Shown here one piece after another: positions 18,276 to 23,705 of a DNA stretch of 64,000 nucleotides; the first letter of the stretch is position 1, and every line of letters starts with the position of its first letter. The notes below the pieces were generated by a model. That model was given only the letters and a program-made list of their open reading frames with translations. It searched no databases and was not told where the DNA came from. The position numbers and the translations under genes were made by a program. The stretch comes from Clostridiaceae bacterium. Lineage in GTDB: Bacteria; Bacillota; Clostridia; DUPQ01. The stretch lies in the NCBI GenBank assembly GCA_012838235.1, contig DUPQ01000009.1, forward strand, positions 29,681 through 93,680, written 5' to 3'.

Positions 18276-18746
18276 TTACTCGGTACTTAGTTTTTCTACA
18301 TCCTTGACTTTTTCATTGATCTTTTTAATCTTACTCTTCCAAATAAAATACTGTATCAGCCAGGTAACGATAAAAATTCCTAAAAATATCGCAATGTAAG
18401 ATATAACTCCTCCTACGGTGTTGGGCATCCATTTTGCAACATAAGAAATAGGAAACATAACTAAGCATATAACGGCAAAATAGATACCTGTCTGCTTTGC
18501 AAGACTCCAGGTTTCTATTTCCCATATGACGGAAGACATTGCAAATCCTGCTCCCAGTATTCCCGACAAAACTGTCTGTAATATAACGGCATTGAGTTCA
18601 CTGCCCACTTTTTCCACCAATTCCGGTTTTGCAAAATGGAACATTCCGTCTCCTGCATATAGCGAAACAAGTATGGAAACTATATAGCCTATTGCAATAC
18701 CCAGAGGAAAACCGAGCAAACCGCGATTAATAATCTTCTTTTTCAT
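18276..18746 (-). CDS. DUF3021 domain membrane protein
   Basis: Four TM helices, GFPLGIAIGYIVSILVSLYAGDG..., immediately downstream of a LytTR gene. Confidence 0.85.
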   Translation of the reverse strand: MKKKIINRGLLGFPLGIAIGYIVSILVSLYAGDGMFHFAKPELVEKVGSELNAVILQTVLSGILGAGFAMSSVIWEIETWSLAKQTGIYFAVICLVMFPISYVAKWMPNTVGGVISYIAIFLGIFIVTWLIQYFIWKSKIKKINEKVKDVEKLSTE

Positions 18747-18755
18747 TTTATCACC

Positions 18756-19196
18756 TCATATTCCTAATAATTGTTTTATTCTGGCGACAAATCGCCTTGA
18801 TACATATGTAACCGTTCCGTTGGAAAGTATTACACAAATTGTTCCTGCCAGACTTAAGTCAAAACCTTTTACTTTTTTCAGATTGATAATATCCGAGTTG
18901 GATATTCGCACAAAGTTATTATTGTCCAGCCTCTCTTCTATTTCATAAAGTCTGAGACGGAGCGTATACTCCCCGTGAGTTGTTTCGGCAAATACCTTAC
19001 CGCCTGAAGCATATATACGGTAAATATCGGAAAGCTCCAACACCTTAACAATCTCCTCTTTGAATCCGGCAATTATCTGCGGTTGCTGTTCCGAAAGTTT
19101 TTTAATGACTTCATTAATCTCTTCTGTCATCTTATCCGTTACAACGATAATCTTCGGTTCTTTACAGTCTTCGTCTATCTTTATTTCTATCTGCAT
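18756..19196 (-). CDS. LytTR-type DNA-binding transcriptional regulator
   Basis: IYRIYASGGKVFAETTHGEYTLRLRLYEIEERLDNNNFVRISNSDIINLKKVKGFDLSLAGTICVILSNGTVTYVSRRFV. Confidence 0.92.
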   Translation of the reverse strand: MQIEIKIDEDCKEPKIIVVTDKMTEEINEVIKKLSEQQPQIIAGFKEEIVKVLELSDIYRIYASGGKVFAETTHGEYTLRLRLYEIEERLDNNNFVRISNSDIINLKKVKGFDLSLAGTICVILSNGTVTYVSRRFVARIKQLLGI

Positions 19197-19312: not shown

Positions 19313-20293
19313 CTAATATTTAACTATTGAATGACCGAAAACATCGGCACTTATCTTAAGGAATTCCTGACACATGACATCAATTGCTTCTCTTCTGTGT
19401 CCTGCTCCTACCGGGTCGGAATACCATTTGGCCATAAATCCGCCCTTTTTACTTCCCAGTGCATGAAACATGGTATGGCAATATCTTCTTATCTCATCCA
19501 AAGAACCTTTAACAAATATATTCTGTATATCCACCGGGCAGAAAAAAGTAATCCTGTCTTTGTATTTCCCCAGATATTCCAGTCCCATATTCTGCTGCTG
19601 ATCCATCTGAATGCAATCCAGACCGGCATCTATCAAATCGTCAAGAATACTCCTTATATCCCCGCAACTGTGAAGAATTGTATACATATTATTATCATGA
19701 GCCGCTTTATATATCCTCTTGTATCTCGGCTTCCATATCTCTCTCCATTTGTCGGGAGAAATCATTAAAGAGTTCTGTAATCCCCAATCATCGGCGAATA
19801 TGAGCGAATCGACGCCGTAACTGGCAAACCGTTCCACAATATGCACATTCATATCGGTTAAGATATCAATAAGCTGACACAAATAATCGGTATTCTCATA
19901 TATATCAATCCAGGTATTTTCCAATCCTCTCAGAAAGTGAACTCGTTCGTAAATGGAAATTCCCACACCCATGGTGAATTTATCTTTGTGGTTTTCAATA
20001 TTCTCCTTTACGCCTTCCCATCTTCTATCCTCCGTTACATCGGGTATATGCATGCTTTCAAAGTCATCCCAGCTTTTAAGAGGAAATTCCTTAACTTCTC
20101 CCAGTTTGGATATACCGATATTATCCCATACGGCATTCCATTCATCTTTGCCTTTTGAGGGTCTGTAATCGGGATTTGCCCTCATATTGATAAACTTGAA
20201 ATCCGTTCCGTATTCCGGCGGAAAATCCACTGCCAGCCTGTCCGGATATTTAAACTGTAAAGTCGCTTTAACTACCTCTTTTGAATTCATCAT
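19313..20293 (-). CDS. Uroporphyrinogen decarboxylase family protein (UroD/corrinoid methyltransferase-like)
   Basis: VDSLIFADDWGLQNSLMISPDKWREIWKPRYKRIYKAAHDNNMYTILHSCGDI...IDAGLDCIQMDQQ. Confidence 0.88.
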   Translation of the reverse strand: MMNSKEVVKATLQFKYPDRLAVDFPPEYGTDFKFINMRANPDYRPSKGKDEWNAVWDNIGISKLGEVKEFPLKSWDDFESMHIPDVTEDRRWEGVKENIENHKDKFTMGVGISIYERVHFLRGLENTWIDIYENTDYLCQLIDILTDMNVHIVERFASYGVDSLIFADDWGLQNSLMISPDKWREIWKPRYKRIYKAAHDNNMYTILHSCGDIRSILDDLIDAGLDCIQMDQQQNMGLEYLGKYKDRITFFCPVDIQNIFVKGSLDEIRRYCHTMFHALGSKKGGFMAKWYSDPVGAGHRREAIDVMCQEFLKISADVFGHSIVKY

Positions 20294-20408
20294 TTCCATC
20301 ACCCTCATTAAAATTATATTCATTTTCATTACGAACCACAATATCCGCTATATATTCTGCCTGATTCAGGTATAATGTATCTGTAATATCAAATCAGCGA
20401 GGACACAC

Positions 20409-21833
20409 ATGATTCCCGTACTGGAAAACAGATGGATTTTAAAAGATAATATATTAAAATACTACGGCTTACGTAAAAAGCCGTATACATTTAAAAATAC
20501 GGTAAACATATCGGCTTCCACTGCGAAAATAATACAGTCTTTTGACGGAATAAGACATTTGTCGGAGTGTAAGATAAATAGTCAGATAAAGCAATTGATT
20601 AAGAAAAAGATAATTGTCGATGTACATTCCAAAAGAACCGTCCCCGATACTATAGATAATGCATTTTTCTGCAAAAACTGCTGTTCAAACGATTATGTGA
20701 TACCCGGTATAGAGTTTGATGACAACGGATTATGCCCCGTTTGTACCAATATGCCTTCGTTTAAGAATATAAAAGATGTCTTACCCGTAGTTAACACCAT
20801 AGAACACAATGAAAAGGCAAAATATGATGTCGCTCTTTTCTATACCGGAGGTAAAGACTCCACTTTTCTTTTATACTATTTTGCAGATGTGTTAAAACTG
20901 AAGGTGCTTGCTCTTACATGGGATATTCCTTTCATGTCGGATAATGCAATTAAAAGTATGAATAATGCAAAAGAAATATTCACAGATACCGACTTTATTT
21001 CCAAAGCATTGAATGATGAAGAACAAGCGGCCATATACAAGAAATCCTATGAACTTATGAAAAATGTATGTATATGTCCCTTTGCAGCCTATCCCCTGTT
21101 TTTGAAAGAATTGAGAGATTCGGGTGTAAAGTATGTGGTTTCGGGAAACGAACCGGCTCAACCCATAAATCTCATATTCAACAACTTATCACCAAAAACT
21201 TTCTATAACCCGTTATTTCAGATGCTATTTCGGGTTATATATAACATGGTGAGAATTTTTAAAGGATTGAAGCCGCTAAAAAAAGGTCGGATGGAAATGC
21301 TTCTGCTTTTGGAAACATTGGCCTTCGGGCAACCTCGGTTTATATCCGCTAAAACAGTAAGAAATCCTATGATAAGAAACATACATCAAGCATTGAAAGA
21401 GGCGGATGTTCTGATTACTTCATTTCGGAAAGAGGTTGAACAAGCCTCACTTGACGGCAACATACCTGCCCTTATTCATATCGATTTTAACGATGTAATT
21501 AAAGGTTGTATGAATAATATTTTATCCGACGGATATGTATGGAAGGATATAAAGGCATTACTCAAAGATAAAGCCGGATGGATTGATTCGGAAAATACAG
21601 ATTCAGGACTTCATACCAGCTGTAAAATAGAGCGGTGTAAGGATTTTTCACAGTATCAGTCTTTCAAAGCCATGGAAAGCGATATCATACCTTTCTCCGC
21701 ACTGGAATTATCCGTTGCCGTTAATTTAGGTTCTTTGACACGAGAAGATGCAATAAAGGAAATCAGGCACAATTCCGGATTTACCGATGTTGCACCTTGT
21801 GAAACCGGGATAATGACTAAATCGTTTATGTAA
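20409..21833 (+). CDS. PP-loop ATPase, PseA/WbpG (sugar amidotransferase)-like, with possible PqqD/RRE-like N-terminus
   Basis: FCKNCCSNDYVIPGIEFDDNGLCPVC zinc-ribbon-like, then YDVALFYTGGKDSTFLLYYF PP-loop; N-terminal NISASTAKIIQSFDGIRHLSECKI. Confidence 0.72.
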   Translation: MIPVLENRWILKDNILKYYGLRKKPYTFKNTVNISASTAKIIQSFDGIRHLSECKINSQIKQLIKKKIIVDVHSKRTVPDTIDNAFFCKNCCSNDYVIPGIEFDDNGLCPVCTNMPSFKNIKDVLPVVNTIEHNEKAKYDVALFYTGGKDSTFLLYYFADVLKLKVLALTWDIPFMSDNAIKSMNNAKEIFTDTDFISKALNDEEQAAIYKKSYELMKNVCICPFAAYPLFLKELRDSGVKYVVSGNEPAQPINLIFNNLSPKTFYNPLFQMLFRVIYNMVRIFKGLKPLKKGRMEMLLLLETLAFGQPRFISAKTVRNPMIRNIHQALKEADVLITSFRKEVEQASLDGNIPALIHIDFNDVIKGCMNNILSDGYVWKDIKALLKDKAGWIDSENTDSGLHTSCKIERCKDFSQYQSFKAMESDIIPFSALELSVAVNLGSLTREDAIKEIRHNSGFTDVAPCETGIMTKSFM

Positions 21834-22608
21834 TATCTATAAGTTTTCCTAAGTTTTTTACTCCCTTGGATACAATGGATTTTGCTATGGGATTATTGAA
21901 AGTGCAGAGTCTTGCACCAAATTCACATACCTTGACACAAGCTGCACATCTTATGCATTGTTTAACCGAAATACTTAAGTCTTTATCAATTGCATCGGTC
22001 GGACATGCCGTTATGCATTTATTGCACCGTACACACTTATTCTTATCTACGCGAGGTATCTTTATTGAAACTTTTCCTAAAAACTTCTGACCGAAAAGTT
22101 CCGCTACCGCAAACTGCCCCTTTATATCAACATGCTTTTTATTCTTCACATTGTAAATAACTTTTTTTAAGAAATTCTCCAATTCAACGGAATAATCGTA
22201 GTATATACCGTAATCTTTAAAGGCACTTGAATAGGAATGTTCGGCAGGTATAGCAGCAGCTCCGTATATCGATATACCTTTTTCCTTTAAAATATGGTTT
22301 GCCTGAGATAAAGCGTTACCTATAGTAACGGAACCGTATGTAGCTACGATAGCACCATTTTCCGCATTGATTTTAAGATGTTTAAGATATTCCGCATACG
22401 CATCGGGAATGGACTGATTATATACCGGAAAAGCTATGACAAACAAATCATATGCGATATCCACCGCCTGTCTTCTCTCTCTTATTGCACGTCTTGTAAC
22501 ATCAAATATATCTACCGCATATCCGTTGTTTCTCAGTGTTTTAGCCATATCTTCACACAAGTTATATGTGTTCCTTGTCGGTGAAAAACAGTTAATCAGG
22601 CATCTCAT
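21826..22608 (-). CDS. EFR1-type flavodoxin/ferredoxin fusion
   Basis: N-terminal flavodoxin-like fold plus CVRCNKCITACPTDAI and CIRCAACVKVCEFGA 4Fe-4S motifs. Confidence 0.88.
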   Translation of the reverse strand: MRCLINCFSPTRNTYNLCEDMAKTLRNNGYAVDIFDVTRRAIRERRQAVDIAYDLFVIAFPVYNQSIPDAYAEYLKHLKINAENGAIVATYGSVTIGNALSQANHILKEKGISIYGAAAIPAEHSYSSAFKDYGIYYDYSVELENFLKKVIYNVKNKKHVDIKGQFAVAELFGQKFLGKVSIKIPRVDKNKCVRCNKCITACPTDAIDKDLSISVKQCIRCAACVKVCEFGARLCTFNNPIAKSIVSKGVKNLGKLIDIT

Positions 22609-23705
22609 ATAGTATCTCCTTCAAAATCCGTTACTGAAAACATTGTCTTCAAACGATTATACTCCTCTTTTGCATTTTCATCCGGTTTACCGGTATATAT
22701 TGCTCTGATAAGAACATTCTTCATTGTATGTTCAACAGGTGCAAACTCCACCATATCCGTACTGTAACCTTTGGATTTCAAAGCCAGAACTCTTAATGTA
22801 TTTGTCAGCATTTCGGTAAACCTGTCTTTCTGTAAACCGTTATGAAAGCATAGGTTTAAGTTGTTCATTATCTATCTGCTTAAATAACTGATGCTGACAG
22901 CACGGAACCGATATGATGAGTTTTGCCTTGTTCCTTACAGCACTGCTCAAAAAGATATCAGTTGCTATATCACATGCATGAAGTCCTACCGCTATATCCA
23001 AGTAATCGTCATATGCCTTAATATCGCCGGATATGAAAGTTAAATCTGTCATACCGTATTTTTCAGCAATATCATTAAGATTACTATAACATCACTCTTT
23101 AAATCTATACCTGTTATATTGGTATTCATATGTTTAATATTATGCAAATAAAAGTGTAATGCAAAAGTCAGATAACCTTTACCGCAACAAAAATCCACAA
23201 CCTTAAGTTGCTTATTATCAAATGACAGTTTTTCAAATGCGTGGTCGAATATCTGCAAAAAACTGTTAATCTGCACAAATTTTCTGCGCCCTTTGTCGGT
23301 AACAACACCGTTTATATCAGATATCCCCAGATAATAAAGAAACGGTGCATCGGTTCCGTCTTTTATGATATGGTTCTTCTGTTTATCATGACTTGTATTT
23401 ACAACTGACTTTGTAGGCTTATGATTTTTTATGATAAGTTCGTTTTTCCTGTTTCTGAATACAACTATGTCGTTCTGTTTGGTAAAGATAGTACATTCTT
23501 TGAAATTAGTCGTAATAAGCTTATATATATGCTCAAATAGATTACTTCCATCAAAATTGATATGAAAAGCTTTATTATCGGAAAAATACTCCAGTTGAAA
23601 GCCGTCATTCACTCTTCTTATTCCGGCTTTACTCATATCCGCAGTTGCTTTTCCGAATGAGACCTGTAGAATATCCTTATGTTTTATATCAGACAAAATA
23701 TCCAT
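22605..23705 (-). pseudogene. SAM-dependent methyltransferase (METTL25/PF13679-like), broken by two frameshifts
   Basis: Three consecutive ORFs carry VVDFCCGKGYLTFALHFYL, ISVPCCQHQLFKQI and HNGLQKDRFTEMLTNTLR, collinear pieces of one family in shifted frames. Confidence 0.82.

Follow-up and report, generated by a model that had tools for sequence, protein, structure and literature searches.

The window analyzed here is a stretch of 64,000 nucleotides from a Clostridiaceae contig. It contains a 474-amino-acid open reading frame (ORF) at positions 20409 to 21833 on the plus strand, which begins with ATG and is conserved across orthologs. The gene encodes a PP-loop (AANH) enzyme for which we propose Fe-S-dependent sulfur insertion, drawing on 16 full-length orthologs, a WbuX-like core that scores below the family cut-off, and a CtaC-type cysteine triad. 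Residues 1 to 84 (20409 to 20660) form an N-terminal domain with the invariant pattern RW...YYGxR...N. Downstream are a CxxC...CxxC tetracysteine (C88, C91, C109, and C112; 20670 to 20744), equivalent to the zinc tetracysteine of sugar amidotransferases (NASATs; PMC10607449), and the PP-loop motif TGGKDST (residues 146 to 152; 20844 to 20864), assigned from sequence and alignment. Two more cysteine motifs follow: C221-x-C223 (CIC; 21069 to 21077) and HTSCKIERC (21612 to 21638), which includes C405 and C410. A second gene (21826 to 22608, minus strand) encodes a 260-amino-acid EFR1 family flavodoxin-ferredoxin with two 4Fe-4S motifs; it is convergent with the PP-loop gene and overlaps it by 8 bp.

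A sequence-only reading of this DNA had noted the PP-loop core, the tetracysteine, an additional N-terminal segment, and a C-terminal cysteine motif. All of these are present in the protein, as FCKNC...GLCPVC, YTGGKDST, and TSCKIERC, with approximately 85 residues ahead of the first cysteine; that reading had mentioned neither the second invariant cysteine motif, C221-x-C223, nor the partner gene. We assessed conservation in 16 full-length orthologs, whose identity to the window protein is 37 to 69%. Eight cysteines (C88, C91, C109, C112, C221, C223, C405, and C410) are invariant in all 16, and neither the PP-loop YTGGKDS nor a GNEP.Q motif varies among them. Because R8, W9, Y18, Y19, G20, R22, and N30 are also invariant in this set, the N-terminal extension genuinely belongs to the protein and is conserved.

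The EFR1 gene is the constant companion of the PP-loop gene. In the window it scores 90 bits against the NF038196 EFR1 model (cut-off, 75 bits), and all 16 partner proteins match this model, with a flavodoxin-like domain, two 4Fe-4S motifs, and eight invariant cluster cysteines. The two genes adjoin in 18 of 18 loci. They are co-directional in 13, as an operon with the PP-loop gene first and the ORFs overlapping, and convergent in the other 5, 4 of which share an identical 8-bp overlap. These genomes hold between 1 and 11 matches to the EFR1 model, many spanning the ferredoxin part only; adjacency in every locus is therefore not attributable to chance. No EFR1 gene was found in the flanks of the other AANH/PP-loop superfamily genes examined. 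One copy (L041:9217-10336) is a degenerate pair, in which PP-loop similarity is lost after residue ~173 and the EFR1 gene is truncated, reflecting either decay or assembly collapse.

Outside the pair, neighboring genes differ between genome families and are mostly housekeeping genes, as judged from ORF lists of the 18 loci. Among these loci, we saw no carrier, nonribosomal peptide synthetase (NRPS), precursor peptide, or sugar/glycan gene linked to the pair, and no linked sulfur-donor or substrate gene. In the window itself, a URO-D/MtaA-like methyltransferase gene (19313 to 20341, minus strand) points away from the PP-loop gene. It has this divergent arrangement in each of the three genomes of the genus, is absent from loci in other families, and is probably only local synteny. 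Also close by, a LytTR DNA-binding protein and a DUF3021 membrane protein (18276 to 19196, minus strand) are encoded by a regulatory gene pair. On the other side, a Methyltransf_32 protein (22605 to 23705, minus strand) is broken into three ORFs, as a frameshifted pseudogene or an assembly error; it is a single 366-amino-acid ORF in both same-genus loci (L042 and L043).

Full-length orthologs are scattered among Clostridia genomes. They occur in 3 of 4 sampled genomes of the same genus, 3 of 11 genomes of the order, 1 of 13 genomes of a second family, and 14 of 201 genomes of a third family (2 of these 14 being partial), while a phylum-wide sample of 399 genomes returned only partial paralogs beyond the window's own protein. 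Protein scans of viral contigs, phages, and plasmids yielded no viral or phage homolog and no full-length plasmid homolog, and a scan of genome contigs with the PP-loop protein alone returned a single locus. This patchy distribution makes an accessory function more likely than a housekeeping one. A role in anti-phage defense was considered and set aside, as the PP-loop protein has no PADLOC match.

From the class and phylum, we gathered further PP-loop proteins that have a tetracysteine. This set splits into proteins with and without a C-x(1,2)-C motif approximately 70 to 80 residues past the PP-loop Asp plus a later third cysteine. CtaC, which acts in closthioamide biosynthesis as an Fe-S-dependent thioamide synthetase, thioamidates a carrier-bound peptide and requires ATP, sulfide, and its own Fe-S cluster (PMC6772006). 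We identified CtaC in our set (L128): numbered from its ATG, D77, S78, C154, C157, and C284 coincide with the positions mutated in PMC6772006, and the chorismate-lyase-like, ATP-grasp, and AMP-ligase genes in its locus (L148) agree with the published description of the cta cluster. In a MAFFT alignment, C221, C223, and C405 of the window protein align with CtaC C154, C157, and C284, and D150 and S151 are the PP-loop equivalents of D77 and S78. The triad is present in 16 of 16 window-family proteins and absent from all 6 NASATs, and C410 is restricted to the window family among the groups compared. In hhalign, the window family matches CtaC with 98% probability (E = 3e-13, 304 aligned columns); this comparison supports C405 and leaves the CxC region gapped, so that C221 and C223 are equated with their CtaC counterparts from the MAFFT alignment and the spacing. 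The two proteins share the tetracysteine, the PP-loop, a three-cysteine cluster site aligned position by position, and anaerobic hosts. Unlike the window protein, CtaC lacks the N-terminal domain, a neighboring EFR1 gene, and an equivalent of C410, and its spacing is CxxC. Its gene also sits in a carrier-protein biosynthetic cluster, and approximately 75% of CtaC homologues have a thiotemplated gene context (PMC6772006), whereas no NRPS-sized or carrier gene was recognized among the neighbors in our 18 loci.

In a phylogenetic tree, the 16 family proteins form one clade (support, 100/100) that does not group with NASATs. Its sister (97/93) comprises two NRPS-adjacent PP-loop proteins (L006/L131 and L105/L132), both of which have the cysteine triad. 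One lies immediately after a 2,047-amino-acid NRPS whose domains include TubC docking, condensation, ThiF, AMP-binding, and carrier; the other comes after a carrier-domain gene. The sisters share the CxC spacing and the HTSC motif with the window family; they differ from it in having Leu at C410, no N-terminal domain, and no adjoining EFR1 gene. As the sisters lack the N-terminal domain and the EFR1 neighbor, both seem to have originated with the window clade, in a tree in which several deeper branches are long and weak. In three loci, PP-loop proteins with the CtaC-like triad (HYDC/HFDC/HTSC) adjoin ThiF/E1-like genes or a ThiF-embedding NRPS (L106:1456-3415, L134:8117-10044, and L131:3349-10743), a hint that the two may cooperate in sulfur relay within biosynthetic clusters. 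A further ORF of approximately 2,140 amino acids (L133:1830-8258, plus strand), part of a cluster of the PKS/NRPS-like type, includes a WbuX-like PP-loop segment and is an apparent PP-loop/NRPS fusion.

The N-terminal domain had been read as a possible RiPP recognition element (RRE) of the PqqD type. This assignment did not hold up. An hmmscan found no PF05402 match in the window protein or anywhere in the genome. Comparison of the 16 N termini with 23 PqqD proteins of the same class by hhalign gave a score of 12.05, within the range of 60 column-shuffled controls (mean, 10.2; maximum, 17.3; ten scoring at least 12.68). The proposed "DG" motif occurs in 3 of 16 orthologs, in a poorly conserved stretch of the N terminus. 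What resembles PqqD is only an approximate hydrophobic pattern, in a single register; the invariant residues are different, and RiPP genes are not found nearby. Since the best register in this comparison is the one originally proposed, the negative sequence test leaves room for an RRE-like fold. AlphaFold models had pLDDT values of 32 (full length) and 41 (N-terminal domain), each from two-sequence input, which is too low for either model to be informative. In an N-terminal-only search of 196 genomes, the domain was found in no protein outside the window-protein family. Two weak matches were treated as chance: the best non-ortholog match (E = 6e-4) crosses stop codons and runs into a Rex-like frame, and the top matches of the N-terminal profile in the PDB were to ribosomal protein S4 (E = 0.2). 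We consider that this domain probably recognizes a substrate or a partner.

Several other functions could be proposed for the protein. The best named family match is NCBIfam WbuX (TIGR03573; residues 87 to 250, E = 2.6e-18), common to all 16 orthologs, which speaks for a divergent NASAT of the WbuX/WbpG/PseA type that would equip a surface sugar with an acetamidino group. NASATs have in common with the window protein a PP-loop core and a tetracysteine, the latter being a metal site, with the metal assigned as zinc, in the LpNASAT crystal structure (8WEX; PMC10607449). However, the WbuX match reaches 66.6 bits against a curated cut-off of 203.2 bits, NASATs lack the cysteine triad and an EFR1 partner, and the two groups separate in the tree. 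NASATs also belong to sugar loci, while none of the 18 loci, judged from ORF lists, is a surface-polysaccharide locus, and amidation offers a redox partner no obvious role. A WbuX-type function is thus probably wrong for this protein, and we regard a divergent NASAT as improbable. The sequence-only reading had likewise favored thiolation over lipopolysaccharide sugar chemistry. That preference stands, on the basis of the CtaC/TtuA-type three-cysteine site and the lack of surface-sugar loci; the RRE-based reason for it does not. The enzyme it had in mind, an RRE-fused protein thioamidating or amidating a precursor peptide, would accord with the existence of thioamide-bearing RiPPs and with the hhalign register described above. 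Against it stand the score within the shuffles, the missing PqqD profile match, and the unconserved motif. The precursor peptide or radical-SAM partner expected beside the gene in other genomes was also not found; in the neighborhoods checked, there was no radical-SAM gene and no conserved small ORF beyond antisense artifacts of neighboring genes. We consider such an enzyme very unlikely.

Thiolation of tRNA in the manner of TtcA, TtuA, and NcsA, with the K/R-rich N terminus binding RNA, has more in its favor and is nonetheless unlikely. These enzymes (compared here by description) follow the same principle of a zinc tetracysteine, a PP-loop, and a [4Fe-4S] cluster held by three cysteines (PMC7138817), and CtaC itself was recognized through a TtcA/TtuA motif (PMC6772006). 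The N terminus is K-rich, and the neighbors include an RNA (uracil-5) methyltransferase-like gene at one locus and a class II tRNA synthetase gene at another. However, these neighbors are not repeated in other loci, the nearest relatives are NRPS linked, and no EFR1 partner appears in PMC7138817; a spread as patchy as 14 of 201 genomes in one family and 3 of 11 in the order is unusual for tRNA thiolation. It is also conceivable that the cysteines hold zinc or a purely structural cluster and that the pair carries out an ATP-dependent reduction, with EFR1 reducing an adenylated substrate. This scheme would fit the dedicated electron-carrier gene present at all 18 loci and the count of four rather than three extra invariant cysteines; we found no PP-loop precedent for it, however, and the CtaC-type triad favors sulfur chemistry, leaving it the least probable of the functions considered. 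A Methanothermococcus PAPS reductase, considered as a precedent because of an EFR1 match, was rejected because it has a different, APS-reductase-like architecture.

From these comparisons, the most likely product of the window gene is an enzyme that is sensitive to oxygen, uses ATP, and places sulfur into a molecule. Judging by sequence, we think it reasonably probable that the protein represents a new clade of PP-loop enzymes that insert sulfur in an Fe-S-dependent manner and have a redox partner of their own. By analogy with CtaC and TtuA, the PP-loop protein would bind ATP and adenylate its substrate at a carbonyl oxygen (of an amide or a similar group); an Fe-S cluster on C221, C223, and C405 would then pass sulfide to the activated carbon, and departure of AMP would leave a C=S (thioamide-type) product, oxygen being replaced by sulfur. 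The tetracysteine would carry a structural zinc. EFR1, with a predicted flavin and two [4Fe-4S] clusters, would provide low-potential electrons, either keeping the cluster active or reducing a sulfur donor (e.g., a persulfide) to sulfide.

Several observations argue against the proposed sulfur insertion. The first two triad cysteines are spaced CxC rather than CxxC as in CtaC, a spacing also seen in the NRPS-linked sisters. In TtuA, the cluster has only three cysteine ligands and its free iron handles sulfur (PMC7138817); the fourth invariant cysteine of the window family, C410, may tune or close the cluster, and could mean that the site holds zinc, or a cluster with every iron ligated and none free. 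In addition, hhalign did not set the CxC against the CxxC of CtaC, neither a sulfur-donor nor a substrate gene is linked to the pair, and PMC6772006 and PMC7138817 describe no dedicated redox partner for CtaC or TtuA.

More speculatively, the pair may exemplify an undescribed two-protein PP-loop class of anaerobic bacteria, a possibility that we put forward tentatively and consider doubtful as it stands. Here, an adenylating Fe-S enzyme with a new N-terminal recognition domain would act on a free metabolite or a macromolecule, while an obligate flavodoxin-ferredoxin partner would feed electrons into the reaction, whether a reductive sulfur insertion or a reduction of the adenylated carbonyl.

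The cysteine alignment provides a simple test for telling Fe-S sulfur inserters and sugar amidotransferases apart within one superfamily. If the pairing with EFR1 means what it suggests, it would supply a redox partner for CtaC-type sulfur insertion, for which the native sulfur source was left open in PMC6772006, and would point to new sulfur-containing molecules in anaerobic Clostridia.
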